Assembly: GCF_018069875.1 (NCBI RefSeq)
Contig: NZ_JAGQDF010000006.1
Coordinates: 1-64,000 of the forward strand
Reading direction: 5' to 3'
Length of the DNA stretch: 64,000 bases
Source of the DNA: Ideonella alba
GTDB taxonomy: Bacteria; Pseudomonadota; Gammaproteobacteria; Burkholderiales; Burkholderiaceae_C
A program made the position numbers and the translations under genes. Shown here piece after piece: positions 30,566 to 53,205 of this stretch (position 1 is its first letter; each line of letters starts with the position of its first letter). The notes under the pieces are model-generated. The model saw only the letters and a list, made by a program, of their open reading frames with translations, searched no databases and was not told the DNA's origin.

Positions 30566-30577
30566 GGGACACCTGCC

Positions 30578-32005: not shown

Positions 32006-32106
32006 GCTGGCCTCCCCTCTTCTTGTGGGCGCCATTATCGATGCGGTCCTGGGCCATTGCGCCCGACGGGTCGGGCGGAACGTACACTACGATGCTGATG
32101 TCCGGG

Positions 32107-35838: not shown

Positions 35839-35858
35839 GGGGATCTCCGGCGTGGAGC

Positions 35859-37277
35859 CTACCAGCGCTTCTTCGCGCTCTTGAGGCGCCGCCAGGCCGG
35901 ATTGTTGGAGCTTGGCGCAGCCAAGTGCTTGATGTCCCGGACCGTCACCGGCACACGGCGGACGGCATAGACCGAGCCGTTCATGCGAACCACGCAATCC
36001 ATGTGATGAACGCCGACGTAGGCCGTTTTCTCCTCGACGCTGAACATTCGTGCCGCTGACCAGCGATGCCCAAGGTCGCCGATCAGCGCCGACTCCTGGC
36101 CCTCGTTGCGGACGGTCCACTCCACCGTCGCCATGTCAGGCACGACGTGCGGGTTCGTGATCGTGAAGACCAGGTCGCAATCGCGCGCGACACCGGGTAC
36201 GCCGTTCATGTGGCTGGCCATGTGTCGACGCGGTTTGCGCGCGAACACGTCGACGCGGATCTCGGGCAAGACCATCAAGGCCCGGCCCGCCGGGTTGACG
36301 ACTTCGACTTCTTCGGCTTCGGGAAGCGGCATCAGGAACGAGAAGGCCTGCGACCACGCCAATGCGGCGGAGACCTCGTCCTCCGCTGTTGAGGCTGCCT
36401 CCGCCGCATCACGAAGGGCTTGCCATCGGCTGAGGAAGGCATCCCACTGGTCCGACGCGATGCGATTCAGGTTCTCGGTCTTGTCGATGGGGTTGGGCAC
36501 GACAGAATCGTTGAGGAGCCTTTCGTGGACATCCCGAATCACGGTGCGCAGTGCATCGTCGTCATCCTCGCGCTCCCACAGACGCCCCAGCTGGCGCATG
36601 AAGGCGCAGTAGCTGTCCGCGACCAGGACACTGAGCATGACCGAAGAGGGCCTGGCATCCGGCGCATCACGAAACCCGACGGCCGCCCAGGCCTTCAGAT
36701 ACCGGATGAGGCGTCGCATCTGGTCCCGGTCCTCGCCATCGGCGACATCCTTGAACCACTTGTACAAGGGCTTGGGATCCCGGTCTTCCCAGCCGTCTTG
36801 CAGATGTGCCAGCCGACGCCGGTCTCGCCCACGGTCGAGGTGGTACGTCGGCGTGTCGATGTGGAACTGCTGCTCGTACACGGCGCGCGAGCAGCGGTCC
36901 TTCGGTGGCTCGACCACCTCGACCAGCGTGTTGGTCCTTGCCTGGTATGCGTGCAATTCTCGCTGAACCCAGTCCCTCAACTGGCGCGGCGTTGGCTCGA
37001 TGTCCTGCTCGTCGGGGTCCCACTCGAAGTACACGCCCAGATCGACGTCATAGCGCTCGCCCTTGTGAACGGGCTTGATGAGCGTGGCGTACTTGTACGA
37101 ACCCTGCAGCCAGGTGCTGATGGCGTAGCCGTGCTGCTGCGAAAGCTCGCGCCTGAGGTGGTCGGCGAGCTCGTTCCACTGCGTCCGAAGAAACTCGACC
37201 TGCTCGGGTGATGGAGTCACCCTCGTGTAGAGCGTTTGATCGGCCGCGCCATTGAACAGCCGGGAGGCTAGACCCAT
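35859..37277 (-). CDS. CBASS CD-NTase with C-terminal AGS-C sensor domain
   Basis: 472 residues from the ATG at 37277 (GGGGAG Shine-Dalgarno). The nucleotidyltransferase core has Gly59-Ser60 and the metal acids Asp77 and Asp79 (ERYDVDLGVYF), with a third acid in FHIDTPTYHL. The C-terminal ~130 residues (RPRRHMASHMNG-like start, VFTITNPHVVPDMATVEWTVRN, WSAARMFSVEEKTAYVGVHHMDC) match the AGS-C sensor found on SMODS/CD-NTases. On infection it should make a cyclic nucleotide that triggers the Cap15-like effector. No Cap2/Cap3 genes are present, so this is a minimal type I CBASS. Confidence 0.88.
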   Translation of the reverse strand: MGLASRLFNGAADQTLYTRVTPSPEQVEFLRTQWNELADHLRRELSQQHGYAISTWLQGSYKYATLIKPVHKGERYDVDLGVYFEWDPDEQDIEPTPRQLRDWVQRELHAYQARTNTLVEVVEPPKDRCSRAVYEQQFHIDTPTYHLDRGRDRRRLAHLQDGWEDRDPKPLYKWFKDVADGEDRDQMRRLIRYLKAWAAVGFRDAPDARPSSVMLSVLVADSYCAFMRQLGRLWEREDDDDALRTVIRDVHERLLNDSVVPNPIDKTENLNRIASDQWDAFLSRWQALRDAAEAASTAEDEVSAALAWSQAFSFLMPLPEAEEVEVVNPAGRALMVLPEIRVDVFARKPRRHMASHMNGVPGVARDCDLVFTITNPHVVPDMATVEWTVRNEGQESALIGDLGHRWSAARMFSVEEKTAYVGVHHMDCVVRMNGSVYAVRRVPVTVRDIKHLAAPSSNNPAWRRLKSAKKRW

Positions 37278-37341
37278 TGGCGAGCTCCCCAGCCCGTGCG
37301 AGGAGATCCCAACCGGCCGCAGTTCATGATCAGGCTGAGCA

Positions 37342-37917
37342 TTACAGGATGGCCCGATAGCCGCCGAGCGCCTGGGGCGTCTGGGCAAGTCCCTGCCGCA
37401 GGAGCACGTCGAGGTAGGCATCGACGGTCATGGGCGGGTTCTTCAACTGGCGGCGTTGGCGCTGCGCCGCCGCGATGACGGCGGCAGGATCGAGGTCGAA
37501 GAGGTTGTCGACAAACAAGTCCGGGTGTTGCGCCTCGATGCCGAACGGCTCCAACGCGTCGGCCGGAAAGTCCTTCTCGTTGAAGGTCACGATGACGCTG
37601 GCGCCGCACCGGATTGCCGCAGCAAGGACATGCCGGTCTCCAGGATCGGGCAGCCGCAGGTTCTCGGCGATGGCCTCGTGACCGGTGACCAGGGCATCCG
37701 GGATGGCCTGATCCATCGGCGCCGAAGTCCTGTTCAACTGCTCAGCCGTCAGATCAGACCGATCGCGCAGCAGGCTGCGCTTCCACTCTTCATGGATCTG
37801 AGAACTCCACCGCGCCCTGAAGCGGCCGGACAGTCCGAGCCACATCAGGAAGTCCCGCAACGGCGCCGGATAGAGCACGCAGGCGTCGTAGACCGCGGTG
37901 AAGTTCGAGTGCCTCAT
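37342..37917 (-). CDS. PIN-domain toxin
   Basis: 191 residues. The PIN acids are visible in AVYDACVLYP, in the central LPDPGDRHVLAAA and in VTFNEKDFP. PIN proteins of this size cut RNA, often tRNA or mRNA. The start overlaps the upstream HTH gene by 4 bp (ATGA), the usual order antitoxin then toxin. The pair is a type II toxin-antitoxin candidate. Confidence 0.87.
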   Translation of the reverse strand: MRHSNFTAVYDACVLYPAPLRDFLMWLGLSGRFRARWSSQIHEEWKRSLLRDRSDLTAEQLNRTSAPMDQAIPDALVTGHEAIAENLRLPDPGDRHVLAAAIRCGASVIVTFNEKDFPADALEPFGIEAQHPDLFVDNLFDLDPAAVIAAAQRQRRQLKNPPMTVDAYLDVLLRQGLAQTPQALGGYRAIL

Positions 37918-38460: not shown

Positions 38461-39555
38461 ATGAACTACAGCCAGAAGATCCAGCGGCTGAAAGACCGCC
38501 GCCAGGGCCTGTACAGCCGAGACGGGGTCTACAACTTTGTCGAGGCGATCACGGGCACGAGCAAGCTCGAGAAGTTCCAGCAACTGGCCGAGCCTGAAGC
38601 GGTCAAGTACGCGATCGGGGCCATGCAGGCCGTCGACCCGGAATACACCCAGAAGTCCTACGCCGAGGGGAACCGCGTGCGGGATCGCCTGGCCGAAGGC
38701 CTGAGCACGGCCGGCATTCCGGCGGTTTTCGACTACCAGGGCTCGGTGCCACTCGACGTCCATGTTCGTGGGAACAGCGACATCGACCTGCTGGTCCTGC
38801 ACGATGGGTTCGTCACCGTGGAAGCGGCCGCACAGGCGGCGTACACCTACCTTGACGCGCCAGGCAAGGCGCCGGCGGAAGAACTCGCAGACCTTCGCAA
38901 GGAGTGCATTGCCATCCTCGAGCGCCGCTTCTGGGGCGCCAAGGTCGACTCCTCACCAAGCAAGGCGATCACCCTGACCGGCGGCTCGCTCCAGCGCGCG
39001 GTCGACGTCATCCCGTCCCACTGGCACGACACCCTTGACTGGAAAAGAACCGGGGACAAGCGGTATCGCGACATCTACGTCTTCGACAGCAAGGCCGCCC
39101 AGCGCATGAAGAACCGCCCGTTCATGCACATCGGGCTCATCGAGGACAAGTGCATCGCCGTCCGTGGGGGACTGCGGAAGTGCATCCGCCTGATGAAGAA
39201 CCTTCGGTACGACGCCAGCAAGACCATCGACCTGTCGAGCTATGACATCGCAGCCATCGCCTGGCACATGACAGATCAGGAATTGGTGGTCCCGTTCGGG
39301 GTTGATCTGCTTCTGGTCGAACGCGTGCGCGCGCACCTGAAGTTCCTGCTTGACCTTCCTGCATACCGTGACGTCCTGCTGGTTCCGGATGCATCTCGGC
39401 GCATCTTCGACAAGCCTGAGAAGGCAGATGCTCTGGCGAATCTGTACAAGGAAGTTGAAAGACTTTCATCCGACCTAGCTCGAGAGATCAACCCTCTCGC
39501 CGCGTACGCAGGGCTGCCGTGCAACCAGGTGCTCAACAAGGCCATCATCCTGTGA
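38461..39555 (+). CDS. CD-NTase-like nucleotidyltransferase
   Basis: 364 residues. The pol-beta-type core is visible as Gly94-Ser95 then NSDIDLLVL with Asp107 and Asp109, and a third carboxylate in LQRAVDVIPSHW near residue 190. The C-terminal half is helical. This layout fits SMODS-type CD-NTases that make second messengers, but no recognisable effector lies beside it. The only downstream same-strand gene is the TPR-like one at 39687. It may be an orphan or part of a system I do not know. It is divergent from the toxin-antitoxin pair. Confidence 0.7.
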   Translation: MNYSQKIQRLKDRRQGLYSRDGVYNFVEAITGTSKLEKFQQLAEPEAVKYAIGAMQAVDPEYTQKSYAEGNRVRDRLAEGLSTAGIPAVFDYQGSVPLDVHVRGNSDIDLLVLHDGFVTVEAAAQAAYTYLDAPGKAPAEELADLRKECIAILERRFWGAKVDSSPSKAITLTGGSLQRAVDVIPSHWHDTLDWKRTGDKRYRDIYVFDSKAAQRMKNRPFMHIGLIEDKCIAVRGGLRKCIRLMKNLRYDASKTIDLSSYDIAAIAWHMTDQELVVPFGVDLLLVERVRAHLKFLLDLPAYRDVLLVPDASRRIFDKPEKADALANLYKEVERLSSDLAREINPLAAYAGLPCNQVLNKAIIL

Positions 39556-39686: not shown

Positions 39687-40373
39687 ATGTCGATGTCTGC
39701 GTCGGAGGCCGAGCGTCTCTTCGAGATGGGAAAGGCGGGCGACGCCGAGCTGCTTGATCGCGCAGGCCATGCATGGCCTGCGGATCAGGAAGCTCTACGC
39801 CCTAGCGATGCCGAAGTTGCAAGGTATGCACGGATCTCGGCCTACCGCTCGGAGCAAGGCTTGGCTAGTGAGTGGCAGGCTAGGCATGTCGCTGCTGCAT
39901 CACTGACCGGCAACCTTAGGAGCCTCTGCCTCTCGCTACAGCCGGCATTCTTCATGTTGGTATCGCGTAAACACTACAGGGGCGCACACGCCGTGCTCGA
40001 TGCAATGGGGGCGATTGCCGGAGCCTGTTCGGTCGACGGCCCGCCAGAGGCTGCTTTGGTGGACCGGATATTGGCAGAGCGTAGGGCGTACCTCTATCGG
40101 ATTGAAGAGCGCTGGGAAGAGTCGATCGTCTGGTACCAGCGCGCTCTCGATCTCTGCGATCGCGGCACTCGCAGCTTCGCCAAAGTGAGAGGGGGACTCG
40201 CCCTCGCCAAATGGCTGGCAGGCGGCCCTGTTGAGGACGCAGTAGCAGAGTTCAAGTCGCTGGTTGAGCTCAGTCAGCCTTGGCGGAACGATGTTTTCGA
40301 AGCCGCCACCTCCAATCTTGCTGCCGCGCGATCGGGCAACCACACGGCGAGCGTTCCGTTCGATCTCGTCTGA
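39687..40373 (+). CDS. Hypothetical TPR-like protein
   Basis: 228 residues from the ATG at 39687, with GGAG nine bases before it; other in-frame ATGs exist upstream. It is helical, with tetratricopeptide-like segments (AERRAYLYRIEERWEESIVW then YQRALDLCDRGT). It may bind peptides or partner proteins. It follows the CD-NTase-like gene by 131 bp and precedes the nitroreductase operon by 301 bp, so its unit is unclear. Confidence 0.6.
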   Translation: MSMSASEAERLFEMGKAGDAELLDRAGHAWPADQEALRPSDAEVARYARISAYRSEQGLASEWQARHVAAASLTGNLRSLCLSLQPAFFMLVSRKHYRGAHAVLDAMGAIAGACSVDGPPEAALVDRILAERRAYLYRIEERWEESIVWYQRALDLCDRGTRSFAKVRGGLALAKWLAGGPVEDAVAEFKSLVELSQPWRNDVFEAATSNLAAARSGNHTASVPFDLV

Positions 40374-40674
40374 GTGATGGGGAAATTGCCAAGATGGAAC
40401 GGTTCACGCCCCAATCGAATTCCAAGTTACGAGGTCAATCAAGCGGCGCGGCGGCCGGTTCAGTGGTGTTGCGAAAAAATCTGAGGTGACGTATTGGCTT
40501 GGCATTCGCTAGTCCACGCACCTTTAGTTCCACATCAGTTCGCAAACGCTGGGGTACGGCGGCGCGCAATGTCAGCACATTCAGTCGAAAGACGGAATCT
40601 AACAGAATACTAGCATTCCTCTACCTGCATATCCAAGCTGCTTTCCTGTGGCACAAACCCCTTTCGGAGGCCCA
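40374..40674. other. Gene-poor gap before the nitroreductase operon
   Basis: No convincing ORF, RNA gene or repeat is seen. The DNA is visibly richer in A and T than the flanks of the island and probably holds the promoter of the nitroreductase, radical SAM and carbamoyltransferase genes; a GGAGG Shine-Dalgarno sits 5 bp before the ATG at 40675. Confidence 0.4.
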
Positions 40675-41382
40675 ATGGCCGAAATCAACTCAGGTCCCGA
40701 TTTGACAGCATCAGCCAGCAGCGAACTAACCAAGCTGATTCTATCCAGACGAAGCGTCCGGGACGAGTACCTGGACAAAACCGTCCCGGACGCCATCGTC
40801 GAAGAGATTCTGCGCTGCGGTCTATCAGCACCGTCGTCGAAGAACGCGCGGCCGTGGTGCTTTCATGTTTTGTCGGATCGCACTGTACTGAGGGAGTTGG
40901 CAGCGGCGGTAGTTTCCGCTGATGGTGCTGACAGTTATGTGCCGAACGATCCCGAGACAGGCAGGCCCCGCGCCGACTGGACCTCTTCCGTTGCCGAGTC
41001 CGCCGCCACACTTGCCGCTGTACCCTTGGGGATATTCATCGAGAACTTAGGGGCGTTCAGCAGAGGCAGGGCGACTTTGGCATCAGTTCCTCAGGACAAC
41101 CTACGCCGAAGTCTCGTCGGCTACACGTTCGAAGTGATGGGAATCGGCTCAGCGCTTATGAACATGTGGTTAGCGGCGAACGCTCTGGGCCTGCAAGCTT
41201 CATTCATGGGCGATATCTGCGTCGCCGAGAAGGCTATAGCCAAGCGACTAGGAATTCGCAAGGACCTTGTGGGAGTCCTGGCCCTCGGCTACAGCACCTC
41301 AAAGCCTCCGCCCAATCGCGAGCGGTACGACACCACCGATGAAACACGCGTTATCTGGCATCGTGGCTCGCCATCTTCTTGA
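40675..41382 (+). CDS. Nitroreductase family FMN protein
   Basis: 235 residues. LILSRRSVRDEYLDKTVP is the usual flavin-binding start; SAPSSKNARPWCFHVL and the GLQASFMGDICVAEKAIAKRLGI segment (LGIrkdLVGVLALGYST) complete the fold. Family members use FMN with NAD(P)H to reduce nitro groups or, in biosynthetic clusters, to oxidise azolines or dehydrogenate. First gene of a three-gene operon with a radical SAM enzyme and an aspartate-transcarbamylase-like enzyme, so a biosynthetic role is more likely than detoxification. Confidence 0.87.
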   Translation: MAEINSGPDLTASASSELTKLILSRRSVRDEYLDKTVPDAIVEEILRCGLSAPSSKNARPWCFHVLSDRTVLRELAAAVVSADGADSYVPNDPETGRPRADWTSSVAESAATLAAVPLGIFIENLGAFSRGRATLASVPQDNLRRSLVGYTFEVMGIGSALMNMWLAANALGLQASFMGDICVAEKAIAKRLGIRKDLVGVLALGYSTSKPPPNRERYDTTDETRVIWHRGSPSS

Positions 41383-41548
41383 CCGCCTGACAAAGACTGG
41401 CCGGGGTGTAAATCAGCTTAGGCTGGGATAGAGACAAGCGACAGCGCATGTATATTCACTTGGCACTGATTGCGAGAAAGACCTAAGTGGCGCTCTACAT
41501 GATAAACAGCCCGAGATGCTACTCAATACATAGAAATCAAAGTGAATC

Positions 41549-42673
41549 ATGCAACTAACAAGCGCACAGCGACTCAAGTTCCAACTTTTCGAACACGGGC
41601 TTTCAATCACTCGTGATGCACTGCAAGCGTTGAAGCAAGCCGCAGCAGGACAAGCGCTATCTTCTGACGACTTTGCCTCTACGAGCGGCATCATTCTTCG
41701 ACTTGAAGACAATGTTTGGGTGAACGCTCCTGTATCTATCTTCAATCCGAACTTCGTAGTGAATTCGCCGTATCTTCTTGAACACGGAAACGACGGATTC
41801 GTTGTCAGGGGAAATGGATTGGAGAGCCGGGCAAAGTACTGGCCTCAGCCCAAATTTCACTCGCAGGTGGGTGCGGATGGGCTACCACTCACGAACTATG
41901 TAGTCACACATGGCGATCGGGCCCGCCTTTCACCCATCCACGGATGTGGGATGGTGTGCAAATTCTGCGACGTTCCGTATGGAGTTCGGTATGGAAAAAA
42001 ACCCATTCCAGCGATGGTCGATGCAGTAGGCCGCGCTATCGCCGACCCGTTACAACCTGCACGCCATCTACTCATTTCTGGGGGAACGCCCCGATCCGCA
42101 GATATCGGATGGCTAAAGGAAGTCTACCGTGCAATCCTGACAAGCTTTCCTTCAATTGATATCGACATCATGATGGTTCCGGTCGATGATCTACTGAACG
42201 TCGAGGAATTGGGACTTATGGGGGTCCACCAGTTATCCATCAATCTGGAACTATTCTCCGACTACGCGGCTCGGCGATTCATGCCTCAGAAGTTCCGCCA
42301 GGGCCGCAATCACTACCTGAACTTCATCGAAAACTCCGCCACTGCACTGGGCGCGGGACGGGTTCGTTCGATGCTGATGGTAGGGCTTGAACCGCCTGAA
42401 GAAACCCTGCACGGTGTACAGGCCATCGTTGAGCGAGGGGGCGTCCCAGTGCTCAGCCCCTTCAGACCGGATCCAACGACGCCGTTGAAAGCCATGCCAC
42501 CGCCCAGCGCAGATTTGATGCAGAGCGTGTTCCTTTCGGCCATGGAGATCGTTGACAAAGGAAGCGCACATTTAGGACCGAGTTGCGTACCATGTACGCA
42601 CAACACGCTCACACTCGCCAGCACTTCTCAAGGCTCAGGGCACCACAGCCACGGTCAGCCTTTCCTCGTCTGA
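41549..42673 (+). CDS. Radical SAM protein
   Basis: 374 residues. The 4Fe-4S motif Cys-xxx-Cys-xx-Cys is in GCGMVCKFCDVPYG, with LLISGGTPRS as the SAM-binding Gly-rich strand. The N-terminal ~120 residues are a family-specific extension. The C-terminus has an extra CVPC pair that may bind a second cluster or zinc. The reaction is unknown. The gap of 166 bp before it holds only ORFs of 12-19 codons, none clearly a precursor peptide, so a ribosomal peptide product is not demonstrated. Confidence 0.85.
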   Translation: MQLTSAQRLKFQLFEHGLSITRDALQALKQAAAGQALSSDDFASTSGIILRLEDNVWVNAPVSIFNPNFVVNSPYLLEHGNDGFVVRGNGLESRAKYWPQPKFHSQVGADGLPLTNYVVTHGDRARLSPIHGCGMVCKFCDVPYGVRYGKKPIPAMVDAVGRAIADPLQPARHLLISGGTPRSADIGWLKEVYRAILTSFPSIDIDIMMVPVDDLLNVEELGLMGVHQLSINLELFSDYAARRFMPQKFRQGRNHYLNFIENSATALGAGRVRSMLMVGLEPPEETLHGVQAIVERGGVPVLSPFRPDPTTPLKAMPPPSADLMQSVFLSAMEIVDKGSAHLGPSCVPCTHNTLTLASTSQGSGHHSHGQPFLV

Positions 42674-42693
42674 AATACCCACGGAATCGCGTC

Positions 42694-43584
42694 ATGCCAC
42701 GCCACCTTGTCAGCGTCGACGACATTCGCGACTCTGAACTCGAATCCATCTTCTTACGCGCGCGTCAGTTCCGCACCGGAGCTCGGGATGCCGCCCGCTC
42801 ATCCAGGCTCAGCGGAAGGGTAGTAGGCCTATTGTTCCTCCAAACTTCGCTGCGGACCCGAGTGGGATTCGCTACTGCTTGCGCTCGACTCGGCTGGCAA
42901 AGCGTGTCTGTGTTTGAGCAGCGTGCCAGCGAAGTGTCCATGGCTGAGAGCATCGATGACACGCTTCGTGTTGCGGGAGGCATGGTCGATCTCATGGTCA
43001 CTCGGCTTCCTGTACCAGTCGGACCAGTCGCTTCGAGCTCACCGGTCCCCGTCATCAGCGGAGGCGATGCAGGCCCGCTTGCCGAACACCCAACGCAGGC
43101 CCTCATTGACGTGTTCGCGATGGAACAAGAGCGCGGTCGAGTCGGGGATCTACACATCGCCATCTGTGGCGACCTTCGTATGCGAAGTGCCCGAAGCCTG
43201 ACTAGGTTGCTACTCCGTCGACGACCGAGGAAGCTGTCTCTGATCTCCGTGCCCGCCCTCATGGATCCTGTCCTTGCAGGCAATCCAGATCCGATCCTCG
43301 ACCGCTGCCAACTGAGCGAGGTTTCGGACGTTGACGTGCTCTACGTTACCGGCATCCCGCATCAAGCCATTCCCGAGGACGTACGAGACACTTTGCGCGT
43401 CACTAGCGACGTCATGAAGCGCCTGCCAAAGAATGCTGTCGTATTGTCTCCAATGCCAGTAATAGACGAAATCGATTCGCAAGCTCGGTGCGATGATCGA
43501 ATCAAAATGTTCAATCAGAGCGACAACGGCGTCTACGTCAGAATGGCAGTCTTGGAGGCGATGGGCGACGCCTCCGCTGCTTAA
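42694..43584 (+). CDS. Aspartate/ornithine carbamoyltransferase-like protein
   Basis: 296 residues from the ATG at 42694. The transcarbamylase fold is evident from FLQTSLRTRVGFATA (the phosphate loop, normally STRT), LAEHPTQALIDVF, CGDLRMRSARSL and the final LSPMPVIDEID (normally HPLPR). The substitution of the loop Thr and of the PLPR motif suggests a changed substrate or loss of normal catalysis, not pyrimidine synthesis. It is the last gene of the operon; its TAA overlaps the stop of the convergent NTPase gene by 4 bp (TTAA at 43581-43584). Confidence 0.8.
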   Translation: MPRHLVSVDDIRDSELESIFLRARQFRTGARDAARSSRLSGRVVGLLFLQTSLRTRVGFATACARLGWQSVSVFEQRASEVSMAESIDDTLRVAGGMVDLMVTRLPVPVGPVASSSPVPVISGGDAGPLAEHPTQALIDVFAMEQERGRVGDLHIAICGDLRMRSARSLTRLLLRRRPRKLSLISVPALMDPVLAGNPDPILDRCQLSEVSDVDVLYVTGIPHQAIPEDVRDTLRVTSDVMKRLPKNAVVLSPMPVIDEIDSQARCDDRIKMFNQSDNGVYVRMAVLEAMGDASAA

Positions 43585-46244
43585 CTATCTACGCGGACGT
43601 CTGCGGCAATACCGAACTCAAGCCGCGCTGGGTAAGTTCGAAAATCCATCGCCTTCAGTTTCTTGAGCACTTCATCTGGCTCTGGGGGCATAGGCAATCG
43701 TGCCAACGTTCCAATGAAGTCATTCGTGACGCCGACTCTGAGGCTGTCGCAGAGATCGATATCGAATAGACGAGGATCACTTAGGGTGCACAATTGATAT
43801 ACCTGACAGTTCTGAAACTCACTACGACCTTGCAGATTCGCACCGAACCAACAATTGGCAACGACGCAGTCGTTCAGGCTCACTGACACCTTAGGAGTAG
43901 CCGGCGAATCGACGGCTTTGGTCACCGTGAGGCCACGAATTGCGCTCTGAACAATGTCGATGGCGCAATCGCTGGCTTCAACGACGTCCAACGACGAACC
44001 GGCGATGAAGCGAAGAGCCAGAGTGCCCCCGTCTACAAAGTGGCATGCCCTGACCATCAGGGAACTCAAGCGCCCACCGAACATTGACAGCCCGTGATCT
44101 TCCAGGCACCAGTCGTGTTTGGCAACGAACCCGTTCCGCCAGGGCATCGCACTCAGGCCGGAGGTGCGAGAGAAGAGATCCAACTCGGGGGGGCGGCCGC
44201 CCTGCTCGACTTGCAGTTCTCTATAGTGAGTCAACTCGTCCACGGTCGCACGCTTGGCGCACACGCGAAACGCGGGCAGCCGGTCGTCCTTCAAGTCGGG
44301 GTTCGGTATCACCGTGCTCGTACCGCCGACAATCGTGCACCCTTCAAACGTCACGTTGTCCATCAGGCAGTTGACGAACACCACGCCCTCAAAACGACAG
44401 CCTCGGAATCCCGTTCCACGAAAATCGCAGTTGACGAAGACGATCCTTACGAAATCCGCGGTGACCTGACAGTCCTTCCAACGCAGATTGACGAAAACTT
44501 CATGTTCTCTTGACTCGTTCCGCAAAGGCAGCGGTTCCGTATCACGGCCAAGCCAGTCCAATGTGCGCCCTTTCGCCGCAGTCAGCAAATGAAGTGCTGC
44601 TCCAGCGTCGGAACGTCTACGGCGCGCCCATGACTCAAGAGCGTCGGCGAATCCATCATGGATCAACTCCAGCATCCTTCGGCTGCCGCCTGCGGGACTT
44701 GCTTGAATAAGCATGGCTTCTTCGAGCCAGCACTGAGCGAATACCAAGCGGCGAAGCTCCTCAATGAGCACATCGCCCGGGAACATTCCGAGCATCGGCC
44801 CCGCCGTGACGTCTTGCGGATCCGCTTCCCATGGAAGCACGTCGATACCCTCCTCCTTGGCCGCGAGGGTCGGTTCGCTGAACTGTGGGTTGAAGCCTGG
44901 GTGATCGACTGATCGCTTGATCTCCGCCCGGCCAACGGTCAGGAGATCCTCTCCGCTAAACTTCTTCTCGGTCCGGTGCAGCAATTGTTCGTGAACCAGC
45001 GCAGCCGCCTCGTGGTCAATCGACCGCGACTTACCGTCAAGTTTTGCCCCATCGATCAGTTGGGTCAACTCAGCGCCAAGTGTCATCCTGGCAAGGTCCC
45101 ACGCTTCGCGCTCCAGTTTGTATCCACCGCTGGAGAGTTGCGGAACGATCCGATAGGCGAGCGCCAGTGCTCCCTGCACGAACGAAGTGTCGCATCCCTC
45201 GATGTGCATCGAGGGTTGATCCTCAAATCCGGCCGCTTCACGCCTGTCCCTCGATTCGCAGGCTCTCTTGCAGTTTTCGAGCTTGGCCTCAACTGCCTTT
45301 CGTAACCCGTAATCGAACAACGTCAACGCCGCACCACTTGCATCGACGCGTTCTGCAGCTGCCTCCTCCATCGCTCGTACGTGCCTGATCTGGATGATGG
45401 GAGTCGCGTCGCTTCCTGCATCACCTTTGGCCGCAAAGTAAAGCGCGTATTGCGTCGCTTGAAGGTGGAGAGGGCCAATGCTGTTCCAGCGCATACCGGG
45501 AGCCCTTGCGGACTCACGCCAGAGTTCGAAGATGCGGTTGGCCGCCTCTTTCTCGATGTACTGACTTGTGCCCGCCTTGTCGCTGGAAATGATCTCCTGA
45601 ATGTCCTCGTCAGCTCGAAGCGGCTCCAAGACCTTCGTTGATATGCTATACGGGGCGGCATCCCTTTCAATCTGACGCAGTCTTGTCACGAACTCCAGAC
45701 GAAGCGACAGAACAATCTTCAACTCTGTTCTTTTGTTTGCATCGAGGATCCAACTCGATACCTTACGGAACATTGCAGGCTGGTGCCTGATGAGATGTTC
45801 GAACTGGTCGAGCACAAGAACTACCTTCTTGTACGCGAGTTGGTCCAGTTGCTCGAACACCGTCTCGCCCTTCGCGTCCAGTGGGCAGCCTTGCAAAATC
45901 GCTTCAGGACCGAGGATGCGGCGCATGAAGCTGTCGGCCTCTTTGTCGGGGCTATCAGGATGCGGGTCAGACCATTTCCTGCATACTAGAACGCGGTAAC
46001 CAGATTTACGCAAGTCTTCGACAAGTCTCGTATTGAGCAGACTCGACTTCCCAGCGCCTGACTCCCCACTCAAAATGACAAGACGGTGCTTCTTCACCCT
46101 GTTCACGAAATCGCTGGAGTCCTGCTTGCGGCCAACGAACGATCCACGGTCCGTTTCGCTATCGTTAAGCGGCCGCGGACCTGGCCAAGGACACTTGTCA
46201 AGACTCTGAAAAAATCCTCGCCAGAGGCTGAGCGTGGTCTTCAT
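43581..46244 (-). CDS. nSTAND1-type NTPase with pentapeptide-like C-terminal repeats
   Basis: 887 residues from the ATG at 46244, which makes a 4-bp ATGA overlap with the upstream gene; 46259 is an alternative. The opening CPWPGPRPLNDSE and FVGRKQDSSDF mark the nSTAND1 family. The P-loop is GESGAGKS (residues 60-67) and the Walker B strand is VVLVLDQFEHLI. The middle is helical. The C-terminus has pentapeptide-like beta-helix repeats (FVNCDFRGTGFRGCRFEGVV), then a Cys-rich beta part. In conflict systems such proteins sense a trigger and oligomerise; I see no catalytic effector domain. Confidence 0.8.
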   Translation of the reverse strand: MKTTLSLWRGFFQSLDKCPWPGPRPLNDSETDRGSFVGRKQDSSDFVNRVKKHRLVILSGESGAGKSSLLNTRLVEDLRKSGYRVLVCRKWSDPHPDSPDKEADSFMRRILGPEAILQGCPLDAKGETVFEQLDQLAYKKVVLVLDQFEHLIRHQPAMFRKVSSWILDANKRTELKIVLSLRLEFVTRLRQIERDAAPYSISTKVLEPLRADEDIQEIISSDKAGTSQYIEKEAANRIFELWRESARAPGMRWNSIGPLHLQATQYALYFAAKGDAGSDATPIIQIRHVRAMEEAAAERVDASGAALTLFDYGLRKAVEAKLENCKRACESRDRREAAGFEDQPSMHIEGCDTSFVQGALALAYRIVPQLSSGGYKLEREAWDLARMTLGAELTQLIDGAKLDGKSRSIDHEAAALVHEQLLHRTEKKFSGEDLLTVGRAEIKRSVDHPGFNPQFSEPTLAAKEEGIDVLPWEADPQDVTAGPMLGMFPGDVLIEELRRLVFAQCWLEEAMLIQASPAGGSRRMLELIHDGFADALESWARRRRSDAGAALHLLTAAKGRTLDWLGRDTEPLPLRNESREHEVFVNLRWKDCQVTADFVRIVFVNCDFRGTGFRGCRFEGVVFVNCLMDNVTFEGCTIVGGTSTVIPNPDLKDDRLPAFRVCAKRATVDELTHYRELQVEQGGRPPELDLFSRTSGLSAMPWRNGFVAKHDWCLEDHGLSMFGGRLSSLMVRACHFVDGGTLALRFIAGSSLDVVEASDCAIDIVQSAIRGLTVTKAVDSPATPKVSVSLNDCVVANCWFGANLQGRSEFQNCQVYQLCTLSDPRLFDIDLCDSLRVGVTNDFIGTLARLPMPPEPDEVLKKLKAMDFRTYPARLEFGIAADVRVDS

Positions 46245-48178
46245 TTGCTGGTACCGCATCCATCTTTGCTAGCCGTCAACATCTCGCGCTTTCGGAGATG
46301 GTCCGCATAGTGGTCTAGGTCTTCGCGGAATCCTGAACACGCGGACTTGACGATGTCGACGCCAAACCACTGAAGTAGGTCACGAGCAGCGGGCCCGACG
46401 TTCTTGACCACGACTAGGCCTGCAGTAAGCGGCATCCGATTCGAGGTACTTACCTCCTGCGTACTGGCTATACCCAGTTTGCTTGCCACGCGATGGCGGA
46501 CGGCCGTGTCGTCCATCTGCACTCCCATTACCATCCAGTATCGCTCTTCCGCAACACCAGTTATTCCCCCGCTCGTGAAGGTGCCAGGCAAACCCAGTGA
46601 TCCAGAACTCCCTGGCCCCACATGAAACATTTCTGAGCTGTGTTGCTGCATAGCGTCATACTCGTCGAGCAGCAGAGCGGGCACGACCCTTTCTGCCTTT
46701 ATCTTGGACCAATCGTCATGAAAGGCCTGATCTGGATCCGTTTGATGAAGCGAAAGAGAGGTGGCCACCTCTACGTCCGGAAGTTCGATAAGCGGACTTC
46801 CTGCCAAGTGAATGACGAACGGCCAGTCTTGATACTCCCATCCAGTAAGTGTCGAGTCCAGTCCACTTAACCTGATCCAAGTTGTTGGCCGCAGTATGTC
46901 TTGGAGTTCGATTGTCTTCGTACCTACCTTTGGCGCGATCACCGCTCCTATCCACCTGAAAGAGGCCGTATCCGGATCATCGTCGTCTGCCAAAGCCGAG
47001 CGCGACTGGAAATAGATCGGCAGAGCAATGATGAAGCCTTGAACGTCATCACGACTCGCTAGTGCCATCTCCAGTTCAACATCAAACGACGTTGAGAATG
47101 CACAAGCGAAGGGGGGTGCATCTGCATCCGTATCGCCGAGTATCTGCCTTCTGAGTTCTGCCTGTGCCATCAACACGTTGGCAGCGCTATCGAAGAATTT
47201 CTGCCGTTCCGTCGACTCGTTGGCATGTCGCATCCGCCACGACTCGTTAGTGACATGCATGTAAGTCTTCCCGATCGACTCCAGCAATTGCGCTCGGCGA
47301 AGTCTGGGGCGTGGCGGAAATCCGTATGGACGATCACCATCCATTGGGTCGTCGAGGCGAGCAAGATCTGCCAACAGGTCGCTCCAACCCGGATAAACCG
47401 TTGACCAAGTGGTAAGTTCCAGCCAGGAGAACTCGGTCAGGATCTGCAGGTTCACTTGATCAATGCAATGGCCATCCACACCATTTAGATCCCGCTCCAC
47501 CTTTTCAAGTATGGTGTACACAGCCGGGGACAGATCCTCAAGCTCTGCGCGACGGAGCAATTCCCTGACGTACATCCTTGTCGGTTTGACGAACCCGTCC
47601 AGAATCTCTCCATATCGCTGCGGGGCGATGTCCCGAAAGCCCCGCTGGAGCAAAATCCTGTCGCTAGCCCTTGGATGCAGAGGGCGTTCGAGCAGAGCAG
47701 CAGCCTCGTGAAACAGCCGGGTAAGCAGGGCCGTAACAAGCATTAGAAGTGCTACCGTCTCCCAGTTGCCACGGTGAGTCAGTTCTTCATTCTTTGACTC
47801 CGCAACGTTTGGCTCCCGCAGCCTTATGAGACTGTGTACGAATGAGCGAACGATCTCGACTGGGCTCTTGCCATCTGGTAGATTCGGTTTGCCAATTAGT
47901 GAATTGGAAATCGAATCTGCGCTGACCCACATCGCCCCCTCTGTGGACTCGCTCGAACAGCCACTTCCCAGGATGAGTGTCAACCAAGGCAACTCTGGGC
48001 CGAGAAAGGGACCGGGCCCCTTCGATCTCTTCAGTGGACCATTTACCTTTGCGAGGACGTTGCACAGCCTGTGAGATGACTTCAGTTCGCTCCGAGCAAG
48101 CTCGATTCTCTTTGTTAGGAACTCACCTCGATCCAGGTAGAAGTTGCCCGCGCGCTTGACTGCTCGGAACTTAATCAT
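46241..48178 (-). CDS. Possible SIR2-like protein of the STAND operon
   Basis: 645 residues, cytoplasmic. LTLILGSGCSSESTEG near residues 67-82 resembles the SIR2/NAD-binding Gly-rich loop (GAG-x-S), and WPFVIHLAGSPL in the C-terminal half resembles the SIR2 xVxHLxG strand. The rest is not recognisable. If SIR2-like, it could cleave NAD on activation as in other defence systems. It overlaps the ATP-grasp gene by 8 bp and the NTPase gene by 4 bp, so all are translationally coupled. Confidence 0.55.
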   Translation of the reverse strand: MIKFRAVKRAGNFYLDRGEFLTKRIELARSELKSSHRLCNVLAKVNGPLKRSKGPGPFLGPELPWLTLILGSGCSSESTEGAMWVSADSISNSLIGKPNLPDGKSPVEIVRSFVHSLIRLREPNVAESKNEELTHRGNWETVALLMLVTALLTRLFHEAAALLERPLHPRASDRILLQRGFRDIAPQRYGEILDGFVKPTRMYVRELLRRAELEDLSPAVYTILEKVERDLNGVDGHCIDQVNLQILTEFSWLELTTWSTVYPGWSDLLADLARLDDPMDGDRPYGFPPRPRLRRAQLLESIGKTYMHVTNESWRMRHANESTERQKFFDSAANVLMAQAELRRQILGDTDADAPPFACAFSTSFDVELEMALASRDDVQGFIIALPIYFQSRSALADDDDPDTASFRWIGAVIAPKVGTKTIELQDILRPTTWIRLSGLDSTLTGWEYQDWPFVIHLAGSPLIELPDVEVATSLSLHQTDPDQAFHDDWSKIKAERVVPALLLDEYDAMQQHSSEMFHVGPGSSGSLGLPGTFTSGGITGVAEERYWMVMGVQMDDTAVRHRVASKLGIASTQEVSTSNRMPLTAGLVVVKNVGPAARDLLQWFGVDIVKSACSGFREDLDHYADHLRKREMLTASKDGCGTSK

Positions 48179-49520
48179 TCCGCCCTCCCCTGGCCAGGTG
48201 TGAAGTCAGGGACTCCAACGATGAGCGGACTTCATGTTCCATAGGCTCAGTCAGTGAGAACCCTGTGTTCGTGACGCTCGTCCTCACGGTCACTCGCGCT
48301 AATGTGGCCCCACTATCAACTTCAAAATCTGGTCGTGCGCACACGTCTACGTTGGCGCCCGACTCGATCAATCCTCCAAGGAAGTCTTCGATATCGATCC
48401 TGATCGGCTCTTTCCCAGTCCAGTGCAGGATCAATTGCGAGAGGGGCGCGGTCTCCCGCATCCGCTCAGAAAGGGAGCGCTGCCGAGGTAGCGGTACACC
48501 GAGTTGTGCCGCCAGGTGCTCAAGCACAAGGCACGGATGCCCGCACTCGACAGACAATCGTGCAGATGCAACAGTGGAACCTTGAAACCGCGGATTCACC
48601 TCAGTGAATCGAAGTACACCGGACTTGTCGAGCAAGTAGTCGACGCCAAATGCTCCCAGGTATCCCTTGGAGCGCAGCCATTGCCCAACGCGCACCGTGT
48701 AGTCCTCTATCCTGGATAAGAGGTCAAGGTCAAAATCTCTTGCCAACGCGAAGTCGTTGCCGCAGTAACCAAACGGGCGGGTGACACATCCTTCGATGCC
48801 GATCAGTTGAACCGAAGGATGATGAACAGAGACACCGTCATTCCAGACTACCGCGCCCACGTTTATCGGCAGGACATCACTGTAGTAAGGCGCAACACTG
48901 ACGAAGGCTTCGTCTGTCTCCGGCCAGAACTTCGACGCTTCTTCCACGGAGTTGGCTCGGAAGAACCCCTGCCCACCGGAAGTTCGACTCCGCCTGAGAA
49001 GGATAGGCCCTTCGGACACCAACTCTCCTGCCCGAAGTTGTTCCTCGTCAGCGATGTAAACCCACGGAATCGTAGGAACCCCCAAGCCTTCGACCGCAGT
49101 CTCTACCCATGGCTTGTGCTCAAAAGCGAACTGCTGTGCACCGAAGAGTCCTAGGTGCATACATCTGTCGCGACGCGCAAACCAGATAGCCGAAAGGAAG
49201 TTCGATGGCCTATAGGGAAGCAGGGCGCTGGGCTCGCTTAGGGCTTGCAACAAGGATCTGCGAAAACTGACGACAGAAGGGTCGCCTCTGAAGTCATCGA
49301 TGTCCCAGACTTCGGGATCGACTCGTCGCCCGAGTTGGTGCTCCAGCGCGACGCCTTCCACTGTCGATCGCCGGTCATACGCTCCAATGATGGAGTACGC
49401 CGAAGCGAGTTGCGGCAGGTCTGCAATGGACTCGATGTCCTCACCCCGCAGTCCGGCCCAGACGAGGCGGCGCCGGCCCAAGCGCGCAGAGACTTCAGAG
49501 ATCAAATCAGCTCGGCGCAT
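48171..49520 (-). CDS. ATP-grasp ligase
   Basis: 449 residues. The ATP-grasp fold is seen as GPILLRRSRTSGGQGFF (residues ~171-187, lysine replaced by Arg in the loop), then DVLPINVGAVVW, and the metal-binding LRFTEVNPRFQGS with Glu307 and Asn309. The enzymes join a carboxylate to an amine or similar with ATP. The substrate is unknown. It overlaps the Lon-NACHT gene by 14 bp and the SIR2-like gene by 8 bp. In this setting it may make, or modify a protein with, a small molecule. Confidence 0.8.
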   Translation of the reverse strand: MRRADLISEVSARLGRRRLVWAGLRGEDIESIADLPQLASAYSIIGAYDRRSTVEGVALEHQLGRRVDPEVWDIDDFRGDPSVVSFRRSLLQALSEPSALLPYRPSNFLSAIWFARRDRCMHLGLFGAQQFAFEHKPWVETAVEGLGVPTIPWVYIADEEQLRAGELVSEGPILLRRSRTSGGQGFFRANSVEEASKFWPETDEAFVSVAPYYSDVLPINVGAVVWNDGVSVHHPSVQLIGIEGCVTRPFGYCGNDFALARDFDLDLLSRIEDYTVRVGQWLRSKGYLGAFGVDYLLDKSGVLRFTEVNPRFQGSTVASARLSVECGHPCLVLEHLAAQLGVPLPRQRSLSERMRETAPLSQLILHWTGKEPIRIDIEDFLGGLIESGANVDVCARPDFEVDSGATLARVTVRTSVTNTGFSLTEPMEHEVRSSLESLTSHLARGGRND

Positions 49521-52500
49521 GTTCCGGCATCTCCTGGAGTTCTTTCATGCTGAACAGTCTACCGTCCACTTGGACCAGCACGCAGTCCGCAGCTAAGCCG
49601 TTTCGGATCACCACAAGGCCCTTCGGAGCCCCGCAGCGCAGTCTGAGTTCTGCTCGCCGCAAGGACGATACCGCCGGCGACACCGTGACAAGACAGCTGT
49701 CCCCACCATGACGTCCGATCGCTGCATAGATCAAGCCAGCGTCCGTAGTGGTTCCTGCGTCGAGGAACTCGATCGAATCAAGCCCAAAGGACACGTCACC
49801 GGAGGTCGGCCTACCGTCGGCATCGATCACGACCGCCTTGGCTTCAGCCGAACCTACCCGATGAAAAATGGCGGATCTGCAAGGCCCCGATGCGTCTTCA
49901 TCGGACACCCAATGCGAGCCAGAACCTGTTCCGGGATACTCCGCACGGATGGTCCGCAGCCCTTGCTTGCCTGTGGCTACGATCTCAACGCGTCGCTCTC
50001 CTCGCATGGCTATTCCAAGGAGCCTCAGATCTCCGGGAATGTCTAGTACGCGCCAGCGTTCGATCGACGGTGCATATCGATTGAGAAATGCGATCTGGAG
50101 TAGCCCATCCTGGGCCTGTGCGCAAACCCTTCCGTCGGCATCAACCACCAGAGAAATGCCGCTGGCGAATTGGCCCATGGCACCGCGCGACGAGGGGTGC
50201 AGGATTGGACCAGTGCGGCTTGGCAACAGCCGGTATTCGACACCGCCAATACGAAATTCACACCAATGTCGGCCTGGCAGTATAGGTCGCCGCGAAAGGC
50301 TTTTCCCGCGACTAGCAGCGGGGGATCGATTTCGCGCCGGACTAAGGCGCTTTGCCTTGTTCGCAACCACTGAACCCGCGATCAACGGCAACGCAAGGCT
50401 GGCAAAGAACTCACGCCAGCCGGGGTGGCTGAACTTGAACTGCCAGCCATTGTTTGCCGCATGGTCCTTCTGCACGATCCCCAATTCGACGCAAGCTTGG
50501 GCGAAGCGCTGTCGCAGAGGTTCGGGCAAATCTGGCGCGACTAGTGGGCGGGGTCGTCCATGACTGTCCGATCCGGTCTCATGGATCCTGGCTGCTGTGG
50601 GAACAGATTGATCGAGAACAGGCCGTCCACTCTGTTCCAGGCCAATCTGCCTCAGGGCCTCTGCCATCAACTCTCGAAGCAACCTGCCTTGCATCGGAAG
50701 GTTCTGCCGTATCACGGAGTCTTGGCCTGGAAACCGTTGAATGACCTCCCGGTCGCCGGATGTCAGCAGCACATGCTGGGCGTGGTCCGGGTGTTTTGGA
50801 TTGGCAGGATCGCCTTGATCGTGCGGGAGAGATTCGCTCCAGCAGGTAGCAATGGAGGCATGATCAGGCGGATACAGCGCACGATTGAGACGCATCCAGA
50901 GCCACCATGCATACAGACCGGTGATGTCTTCGAGTGGCACATCCACCCCGCGCTCCCAAAGTTCACACTGGAGAACAAGATGGATTGGCGATCCGCATAG
51001 ATCCAACGCAGCCGGGACTTGCTTTAGATAGGCTAGCTTTTTGGTGCCTTCGCTTGTACCGAGACGGCGCAGCAGGTATTTGCCTACTTCATGAGGCTGC
51101 CAAGGCAGCACATCGAGTCGGAGCAACCGAACGCCGCTGGCCTCAATTCTGAGGTCTGTCCGGCAAGCCGCCACAAACGGCGTCGAAGCAGCCAAGCGCT
51201 CTTTCACGGCCTCCAGCACCATCGCGGCAAAGGCGGGGCGGTACTCTTGCTCAGACACATCCAACGCGTCCAAGTCGTCCAGCAGCAGTCGTGGCCGCAG
51301 GCCCAGCGCTGCCCATTCTCCCCGCCCCTCTAGCAAATGAAGCAGAGGCTCAGGTGCACCCTGCTCGCGAAAAACGGTCAGTACCCACTGCCACACCTTC
51401 TGACGCGACTGAGCACTTATGGTCATCCTAAGCAATTCCCGCGGCATGTCGCCCACGGACAGGTACACCGGTAGCTCGCAAGCATCGGCGGGTAGCAGAG
51501 CGCCAGACGTGTGGTCCATGCGCGGACCTCCTTGCGCCGACGACAGCGCTTCTAACGCCAGGAGCAGACGGTGGGCGCTGCGCTGCAGGTAATGGCGCAG
51601 AAGCGTGCTCTTGCCGCTTCCCGTTTGGCCACGCAAGGTGTAGGCATGGAACGCATTGAGGGTGTCGAAGCGCTGAAGCAGGCCCGGCAACGTGCCTGCG
51701 CTGTCGTCATCCAGTTGCGGTTGGCCCTGGCCCTCGCCCTTCAAGTCGGGCTTGACCTTCAGCAGCACATGGCGCTGCTGCACCCGTCCGCCCAGGTCGC
51801 GCTCCCAGCTGGCCCAGCAATGCAGCAGCCAGGTGCGCAAGCGGTTGGTGGGCTGCAGGTGTACCGCGTCGAGCAGCTGGGCGGCGGTGGTCTCGCGATC
51901 GGCGCTGGCGGGGCTGGTTCCGGCACTGTCCGGGTCGGTGGCCCTGTCGAACGCATCGACCGCCAGCGGCGCCTCGGCATCGGGATCGCGGTCGCGCAGG
52001 ATGTCTAGCAGGGCCGCCTGCTCCGGCTCCAGCGGGTCAGCGGCCTGGACCACCTTCTGCAGCAAGGCCAGCATCGTGTGGCTTTGCTTCAGCGACACCA
52101 TGCCGTCGGGCATGTCGGGCAGGGCCTGGCCACGGCTGACGTGCAGCACCACCCGCGGCGCGCCGTGCTCGCCGGTCACCAGGCGGGCCAGATCGTGCAG
52201 GGCTTCGGCCTTTTCCACCGCGCCGCCCACTGGCTTCAATTCCATGCCGTGGCCCAACGCCGCACTGCAGGCGGTGCCGTGCAGGTCACTGGCAACCAGA
52301 CGGAGCAGCAGGTTGCGCCAACTCGGCTGCAAGTGGCGACGCAGCAGCCAGGCCGCCCCAAGCAGCAGTGCAGCACCGGCCGAGTCGCCCTGCAGCACGT
52401 CCAAGGGCTGGCCACGCCGTAGGGCCACGCTCCAAGCAATGGCAGTGTCGTTGAAATGTGAGTGGCCGGCGGGCACGGTGCTGGCTGCCGAATCCAGCAG

Positions 52501-53205
52501 GAAGTGCAAGCGGTCGGACACATTGGCCAGCGCGGCATCCCAGGTGGCACCCTTGTCGATGTGCTCCGCAGTGGCCGCGCGCAGCAGCAACGTGCTGGCC
52601 GGTGCCGGCGCCAGGCACAGGCGCGCGCCAGGCTGGCGCACGCGCCACAGCACCAGCGAGCCCGCCACGCCGCGGCCGGCGCTGTCAAGCAGGGCCAGCG
52701 GCAGGCTACAGTGTTCTTCCGCTGCGGGCGGCTGCCAGCCGCGATCACCGACGGCCCCGGGGTGGGCGGCGGCCAGCCAGTGCAGGCTGGTAGCGGCCGC
52801 GCGCGCAGCATGCGCGGCTTGCTGCGGCGTCAGGCCGAACTGCAAGCCATCTTCCCGGGCGCGTTCTGCCGCGCGGACCGCCAGGTCCGCCACCGGCTGG
52901 CCGCTGGCACCGGCCAGCACGGCATCGACCACACGCCGCACCTGCACGGCGGGCGGCTCGGCCCAGGCCAGCAGGGTGCCGGTGTTCGTCATCGGCGGCG
53001 GCACGTCGTTCAGCGCCGACAAGGCCGCCTGCAGTTTCGCAGCGCCATCCGCCACGCCTGGCAACCTTGGCAGCCGATAGGCCAAGTCCAGCAGCGGTGG
53101 CGCCAGCGGTCCGCTGCGCGGCAGCAGGGCTTGCAGCGCGAGACCGGGGCGCTGGGCCGCAGGATGGATTGTGGCCAAGTGGCGGAGGATCTCGTCGGGC
53201 GACAT
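49507..53205 (-). CDS. Lon-like protease fused to a NACHT NTPase
   Basis: 1232 residues. Residues ~165-390 read as a Lon-type S16 protease: the Ser loop GDSAG (Ser275), then LKPVGGAVEKAEAL with Lys332, matching Lon's PVGGxxEK segment, then an LPDMPDGMV strand as in the Lon C-terminus. Residues 520-760 form a NACHT module with P-loop GQTGSGKST (526-534) and Walker B RLLLDDLDALD (640-650). The C-terminal ~380 residues are beta-rich, possibly a propeller-like sensor. An NTPase that senses a trigger and unleashes proteolysis is the simplest inference. The first half is GC-rich and the C-terminal third lower in GC. The pairing of Lon-type protease and NACHT in one chain is unusual in my knowledge. 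Confidence 0.78.
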   Translation of the reverse strand: MSPDEILRHLATIHPAAQRPGLALQALLPRSGPLAPPLLDLAYRLPRLPGVADGAAKLQAALSALNDVPPPMTNTGTLLAWAEPPAVQVRRVVDAVLAGASGQPVADLAVRAAERAREDGLQFGLTPQQAAHAARAAATSLHWLAAAHPGAVGDRGWQPPAAEEHCSLPLALLDSAGRGVAGSLVLWRVRQPGARLCLAPAPASTLLLRAATAEHIDKGATWDAALANVSDRLHFLLDSAASTVPAGHSHFNDTAIAWSVALRRGQPLDVLQGDSAGAALLLGAAWLLRRHLQPSWRNLLLRLVASDLHGTACSAALGHGMELKPVGGAVEKAEALHDLARLVTGEHGAPRVVLHVSRGQALPDMPDGMVSLKQSHTMLALLQKVVQAADPLEPEQAALLDILRDRDPDAEAPLAVDAFDRATDPDSAGTSPASADRETTAAQLLDAVHLQPTNRLRTWLLHCWASWERDLGGRVQQRHVLLKVKPDLKGEGQGQPQLDDDSAGTLPGLLQRFDTLNAFHAYTLRGQTGSGKSTLLRHYLQRSAHRLLLALEALSSAQGGPRMDHTSGALLPADACELPVYLSVGDMPRELLRMTISAQSRQKVWQWVLTVFREQGAPEPLLHLLEGRGEWAALGLRPRLLLDDLDALDVSEQEYRPAFAAMVLEAVKERLAASTPFVAACRTDLRIEASGVRLLRLDVLPWQPHEVGKYLLRRLGTSEGTKKLAYLKQVPAALDLCGSPIHLVLQCELWERGVDVPLEDITGLYAWWLWMRLNRALYPPDHASIATCWSESLPHDQGDPANPKHPDHAQHVLLTSGDREVIQRFPGQDSVIRQNLPMQGRLLRELMAEALRQIGLEQSGRPVLDQSVPTAARIHETGSDSHGRPRPLVAPDLPEPLRQRFAQACVELGIVQKDHAANNGWQFKFSHPGWREFFASLALPLIAGSVVANKAKRLSPARNRSPAASRGKSLSRRPILPGRHWCEFRIGGVEYRLLPSRTGPILHPSSRGAMGQFASGISLVVDADGRVCAQAQDGLLQIAFLNRYAPSIERWRVLDIPGDLRLLGIAMRGERRVEIVATGKQGLRTIRAEYPGTGSGSHWVSDEDASGPCRSAIFHRVGSAEAKAVVIDADGRPTSGDVSFGLDSIEFLDAGTTTDAGLIYAAIGRHGGDSCLVTVSPAVSSLRRAELRLRCGAPKGLVVIRNGLAADCVLVQVDGRLFSMKELQEMPEHAPS

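Follow-up and report, generated by a model that had tools for sequence, protein, structure and literature searches.

Thoeris and CBASS are metabolite-gated abortive-infection systems with exchangeable effectors, and metabolite-gated bacterial immunity is not known to use messengers other than those derived from nucleotides. Kongming (KomA/KomB/KomC) reportedly contains an NADase, KomC, with a catalytic histidine. Here we analyse a 64,000-nucleotide stretch of the Ideonella alba genome (contig NZ_JAGQDF010000006.1, positions 1 to 64,000; hereafter the window), in which four minus-strand genes, encoding Lon-NACHT, ATP-grasp, SIR2-like and nSTAND1-pentapeptide proteins, had been predicted to form a candidate undescribed defence operon. 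Sequence comparison shows that this operon belongs to a rare bacterial module of ~13.5 kb (39687-53205), of whose two arms it forms one; the whole has the appearance of an unnamed defence system. Among published ideas, that of FxSxx-COOH peptide-processing systems comes closest (Kaur et al. 2020, PMC7159879).

Gene content and conservation

The plus-strand arm comprises a TPR-like protein (F7), a nitroreductase (P0007), a radical SAM enzyme (P0006) and a carbamoyltransferase (P0005) whose acceptor site is altered. The minus-strand arm comprises the ATP-grasp ligase (P0002), a SIR2-fold protein (P0003), an nSTAND1-pentapeptide NTPase (P0004) and a locus-variable gene positioned before the ATP-grasp gene, here P0001 (Table 1). 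All four predicted minus-strand open reading frames (ORFs) are present, overlapping by 14 and 8 bp as claimed; the third overlap measures 4 bp, again the claimed value, from the second ATG of P0004 (46244) and 19 bp from the first (46259). The residues named in the original prediction, Ser275, the P-loops at 526 in P0001 and 65 in P0004, and Glu307 of the ATP-grasp protein, are likewise in place. These ORFs are not chance, because the ATP-grasp, SIR2-like and nSTAND1 proteins have homologues in other genomes and P0001 has three paralogues in its own.

Table 1. Protein-coding features of the module in window coordinates.
Feature	Assignment	Coordinates	Strand	Length (residues)	Basis or remark
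F7	TPR-like protein, ends VPFDLV	39687..40373	+	228	E 2e-12 (best domain), profile of four non-window homologues
P0007	Nitroreductase-family flavoenzyme	40648..41382	+		Pfam Nitroreductase E 3e-25
P0006	Radical SAM enzyme (variant_rSAM / MSMEG_0568-like)	41549..42673	+		Pfam Radical_SAM above cut-off
P0005	Carbamoyltransferase (aspartate-carbamoyltransferase-like)	42694..43584	+		OTCace_N E 7e-31
P0004	nSTAND1 NTPase with short pentapeptide region	43581..46259	-	892	Start 46259 or 46244; Pfam nSTAND1 E 1e-20
P0003	SIR2-fold protein, probably catalytically dead	46241..48178	-	645	Predicted fold
P0002	ATP-grasp ligase	48171..49520	-	449	E307, N309 and R311 invariant in 15/15 rows, window included
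P0001	Read as exchangeable effector	49507..53205	-	1232	Putative Ser-Lys (Lon-like?) region, NACHT-type NTPase, C-terminal region of unrecognised kind

Related loci were collected by a pattern-based scan of 84,980 species genomes with P0002 as the query. The scan returned 22 loci, an undercount because exact short peptide matches were required. Sixteen loci (L002-L015, L017 and L018) hold close relatives of the ATP-grasp protein, 15 of them independent because L012 and L013 are near-identical, and six (L016, L019-L023) hold distant relatives only. Among the close loci, record titles name Actinomycetota, Acidobacteria, Anaerolineaceae and Fundidesulfovibrio, and 12 of the 16 state a metagenome-assembled genome (MAG). 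Because L003, L005, L007, L008, L009 and L011 are short or end near the module, gene misses at these loci carry little weight.

With the window proteins alone as queries, the 16 close loci yielded the radical SAM enzyme in 15, nSTAND1 in 12, the nitroreductase in 10 (those in L009, L015 and L017 being weak), the carbamoyltransferase in nine and the SIR2-like protein in six. The same search gave no relatives of P0003-P0007 at the six distant loci and no homologue of P0001 at any of the 22. Family profiles, built partly from these loci, raised the SIR2-like count to 14 of 16, three of them weak (29, 110 and 110 bits), left the other four counts the same and gave a marginal nitroreductase match (29 bits) at the distant locus L020. 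Only the ATP-grasp gene was seen at L008 (Brocadiaceae), and a further carrier from a genome sample (L037, 4.3 kb of sequence) has the radical SAM gene and, in addition, a SIR2-like match of 78 bits.

The predicted four-gene unit therefore fails, since the Lon?-NACHT gene is missing from all 22 related loci and the plus-strand genes at 39687-43584 recur instead. Its four-gene order is likewise not conserved among these loci, but the order ATP-grasp, SIR2-like, nSTAND1 on one strand occurs in 5 of 16 close loci (L002, L003, L004, L006 and L018); in others these genes are rearranged or interrupted by contig ends. What survives of the candidate defence operon is an unnamed, conserved and defence-like composition, though not with these four genes as the unit.

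Pairwise identity matrices of the five core families correlate with r of 0.41 to 0.93 across the ten family pairs (6 to 14 loci per pair, L013 dropped), the observed r being reached by 0 to 96 of 5,000 permutations. The ATP-grasp/nSTAND1 pair gives r 0.88 over nine loci, reached by none of the 5,000. This co-variation is supportive only, because species history contributes. PADLOC 2023 holds no model matching P0001-P0003, P0005-P0007 or F7, and its matches on P0004 are at the level of the P-loop (best 6e-4). No published description of the module was found among the matches listed in the open-licence literature.

The SIR2-fold protein and the nSTAND1 NTPase

Pfam is silent on P0003, but its predicted fold is that of SIR2, which sustains the SIR2-like name. 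Its catalytic positions were assigned from motifs and predicted strands rather than from a solved structure, and the L010 and L012 members were left out of the alignment. Taking HG (His) and TxNxD (Asn) as the SIR2 catalytic motifs, the histidine position is Ala459 in P0003, and each of the 13 aligned members has A, N, C, M, R or S there. The asparagine position is Ser364 in P0003, with Asn kept in three of the 13 (L009, L015 and L017). Given the missing catalytic histidine, the NAD-consuming domain that had been thought possible is unlikely, and P0003 is read from its sequence as a pseudo-enzyme.

The nSTAND1 and pentapeptide names proposed for P0004 are clear. The nSTAND1 match scores 75 bits against a Pfam cut-off of 27, and the P-loop GK[ST] is kept in all 12 nSTAND1 sequences examined, window included.

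The exchangeable position before the ATP-grasp gene

The gene before the ATP-grasp gene differs among loci, being SIR2, TIR, unrecognised or, here, Lon?-NACHT. Directly before the ATP-grasp gene, L002 encodes a Pfam SIR2_2 protein in which the TTNYD and HLHG motifs look intact and L018 encodes a TIR_2 protein, whereas in L003 and L004 the slot holds a gene without a Pfam match. We infer that the effector is encoded by this variable gene. At L006 a separate TIR_2 gene, scoring just above cut-off, follows nSTAND1, and a TIR-NTPase gene lies on the opposite strand. The SIR2-like proteins of L007, L015 and L017 carry TIR_2 as a fusion; among the neighbouring ORFs scanned at these three loci, none was recognised as a separate effector. 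Altogether, a TIR or SIR2 effector candidate is recognised at 6 of 16 close loci and none at the other ten.

P0001 matches three paralogues from its own genome up to about residue 941 (30-33% identity), and these continue into FGE-sulfatase domains; a fourth own-genome protein matches over a short stretch, and the last 290 residues of P0001 have no match in the own-genome paralogues. A Lon?-NACHT chassis thus appears to have been recruited into the effector position. The three large NACHT-type/FGE-sulfatase paralogues and a fourth FGE-sulfatase protein are clustered at C11:582000-633000 of the same genome (L045, L046). The NACHT name falls below cut-off in P0001 itself but lies above it in two of the three paralogues. 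The Lon name draws on motifs, with Ser275 and Lys332 conserved in four of four sequences and GxSAG and GGxxEK taken by us as the motifs of the Lon/S16 Ser-Lys dyad, but Pfam Lon matches neither P0001 nor its paralogues. Among solved-structure profiles, an esterase that carries a GDSAG motif scores best (E 0.0012), followed by PAD4 at 0.38.

The metabolic enzymes and the F7 tail

The ATP-grasp name for P0002 stays below the Pfam cut-off but is upheld by its three invariant residues (Table 1), presumably the Mg/ATP residues of ATP-grasp. Its profile shows weak similarity to carboxylases, carbamoyl-phosphate synthetase and PurT, as well as to two ligases of the amino-acid/peptide kind (8yi6; PGM1 3wvq).

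The carbamoyltransferase P0005, for which we inferred a start at 42694 (the longest ORF begins at 42583), keeps the carbamoyl-phosphate motifs S-x-R-T-R and H-P-x-Q in all nine rows. Its acceptor motif is altered: in 9/9 rows G/E-x-P stands opposite the R-x-Q of the PDB chain, and the Lys has been lost. These correspond, we assume, to the aspartate-binding R229/Q231 and K84 in E. coli aspartate carbamoyltransferase numbering, and because they are missing the acceptor of P0005 is probably not aspartate.

P0006 scores just under the cut-off of NCBIfam variant_rSAM, and its CxxxCxxC motif (C133, C137, C140) as well as C346 and C349 are invariant in 14 of 14 rows. A second, distinct radical SAM-like family occurs at three module loci (L015:8772-9947, L017:1640-2833 and L018:13468-14877), the L017 member having a Pfam match below cut-off only. 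In the Solirubrobacter loci the P0006 family is represented by a further radical SAM paralogue (L012/L013:4270-5979, minus strand).

Family F7 first became apparent in four loci, and their profile added L003 and the window; TPR matches are weak and below cut-off. Genome-wide searching detected F7 in 7 of the 17 carriers, two near-identical Solirubrobacter genomes among them. One of these places F7 ~12 kb from the ATP-grasp gene on the same contig, and in the other, a draft, the two lie on different contigs. F7 homologues terminate in PY[ED][IV]L-COOH, and an exact C-terminal P[YF][ED][ILV][LV]-COOH is present in 8/8 F7 proteins (seven independent). Across the loci and the window, with duplicates and in all frames, 1344 stop-to-stop ORFs reach 150 residues or more; 14 of them end in this motif, and all 14 are F7 copies. 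The fixed tail suggests that the C-terminus is recognised or modified. ARAGORN calls a tRNA-Asn at 40196-40271, inside the F7 coding sequence; because the protein is conserved, this call is probably spurious (or an odd overlap).

Genomic setting

At E <= 1e-30, the ATP-grasp profile has a match in one genome among 150 sampled from the window's family and in one among 398 from its phylum; samples built around other carriers, with the central genome counted, give 2/396, 4/201 and 2/199 genomes. This patchy spread suggests horizontal transfer. Third-position guanine-cytosine (GC) content is 0.57-0.66 across F7 and P0002-P0007, versus 0.81-0.83 in P0009, P0010 and P0008. Within P0001 it is 0.80-0.87 up to residue 500 but falls to 0.53-0.63 beyond residue 700 or so.

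A tRNA-Ser and an integrase-domain ORF lie at one end of the low-GC region. Adjoining the tRNA-Ser, window positions 32481-33999 contain an ORF with integrase arm-binding and central domains, with no match to a catalytic domain, followed by an integrase-core (IS3-like) transposase gene. A separate CBASS locus, situated beside the module, consists of a Cap15 effector with two transmembrane segments (35215-36120) and a cGAMP-synthase-type CD-NTase (35859-37421). A second cyclase-like nucleotidyltransferase (38461-39555) lies just upstream of F7, with PIN and HTH genes between it and CBASS. Hen1/Pnkp RNA-repair genes (28016-32035) are situated across the tRNA-Ser from the island; Hen1 and Pnkp homologues directly adjoin the module in L018 (1297-5431), the sole locus among the 22 at which they were seen.

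Proposed mechanism and alternatives

We read the locus, with a probability of roughly 0.45, as a two-arm conflict module in which a compound made or attached by the enzymes is read by the pseudo-SIR2 and STAND proteins and the response is carried out by an exchangeable effector. The four enzymes would make a carbamoylated amino-acid- or peptide-like compound, or attach such a compound to the C-terminal tail of F7. P0003 would bind this compound or a nucleotide, and P0004 would sense infection or the compound; together they would release the effector, and the infected cell would be killed or arrested. Effector action would be NAD loss with TIR or SIR2, and proteolysis in the window's module if the Ser-Lys region of P0001 is active. 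A more specific version is tentative and somewhat doubtful: radical SAM, flavin, carbamoyl-transfer and ATP-grasp chemistry would build a non-nucleotide immune messenger of amino-acid or peptide type, possibly on the PYEIL tail, and a dead SIR2 and a STAND protein would read it and fire interchangeable TIR, SIR2 or protease effectors. A conserved module linking four enzymes of amino-acid-type metabolism, among them a carbamoyltransferase with a changed acceptor site, to STAND, pseudo-SIR2 and swappable effectors would argue for messengers of another chemistry or for switching through modification of a carrier. Pseudolysinimonas yzui, Solirubrobacter and Fundidesulfovibrio agrisoli are named non-MAG carriers suited to the study of the module.

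A guard logic, in which a constantly made enzyme product or tail modification keeps the STAND protein and effector silent until a phage upsets S-adenosylmethionine, carbamoyl phosphate, flavin mononucleotide or ATP pools, is unlikely. The enzymes belong to families that use central cofactors, and two convergent arms would fit a toxin arm and an antidote arm; a ligand, however, normally activates STAND proteins.

It is rather improbable that F7 is itself the substrate, with the ATP-grasp and radical SAM enzymes extending or cyclising its PYEIL end and with the active agent being either F7 so modified or a peptide that is released, as has been proposed for FxSxx-COOH systems. The motif is exclusive to F7 among the ORFs examined, the ATP-grasp profile weakly touches peptide ligases, and a published analogue (PMC7159879) unites a radical SAM enzyme with a peptide bearing a C-terminal motif and with a TIR NTPase. 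However, an F7 match is missing in 10 of 17 carrier genomes, no protease is recognised in the conserved gene set, and inspection by eye of a limited list revealed no further shared small ORF.

We give still less credence to the locus being a cluster for a secondary metabolite or a nutrient, regulated by STAND-type proteins and without a defence role. Radical SAM, ATP-grasp and nitroreductase-family genes do co-occur in peptide natural-product clusters (PMC8939145), and ABC-type ATPases flank the module in L010, L011 and L014. These are, however, 3 of 16 close loci, and no transporter family recurs in most of them; TIR or SIR2 genes stand at six of the 16, and the window copy lies near CBASS in a low-GC region with the tRNA-Ser and integrase ORF alongside. 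A self-contained operon in which the Lon-NACHT, ATP-grasp, SIR2 and nSTAND1 proteins act jointly, as same-strand overlapping genes might imply, is largely refuted by the distribution of P0001 and the recurring plus-strand genes, and is very improbable.

Relation to known systems

The proposed two-arm module would share metabolite gating and swappable effectors with Thoeris and CBASS; it differs in that neither SLOG nor CD-NTase is recognised in its genes and in an enzyme arm that suggests amino-acid-type chemistry. As in Avs and SIR2-STAND systems, a STAND NTPase stands alongside SIR2 or TIR parts, but here as separate genes accompanied by four metabolic enzymes and with an nSTAND1-pentapeptide architecture, and no Avs model matches at E 0.1. 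For Kongming, an H146N mutant structure of KomC is listed, whereas P0003 has Ala at the catalytic His position; Pfam families expected for the kinase KomA and the HAM1 protein KomB were absent from a general scan of ten window proteins, which included no search aimed at either. The NCBIfam model of the Hailong protein HalA weakly matches P0004 in its pentapeptide stretch, with E 1.4e-4 and 21 bits where the cut-off is 250; this match, far below cut-off and ~50 residues long, is attributed to pentapeptide repeats that the two have in common.

Graspetide and other peptide-ligase clusters (PMC8939145) likewise combine ATP-grasp with radical SAM and nitroreductase-family enzymes; a shared precursor peptide was not seen in our module, which instead has STAND, TIR and SIR2 parts. 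What the module has in common with the FxSxx-COOH systems (PMC7159879) is a single conflict locus that brings together a radical SAM enzyme, a protein whose C-terminal motif is conserved, and a STAND-type AP-ATPase with TIR. It departs from them in that zincin protease, MoxR and vWA were not recognised among the window proteins scanned and in its different tail motif, and it adds a carbamoyltransferase, a nitroreductase, an ATP-grasp ligase and a pseudo-SIR2 protein.
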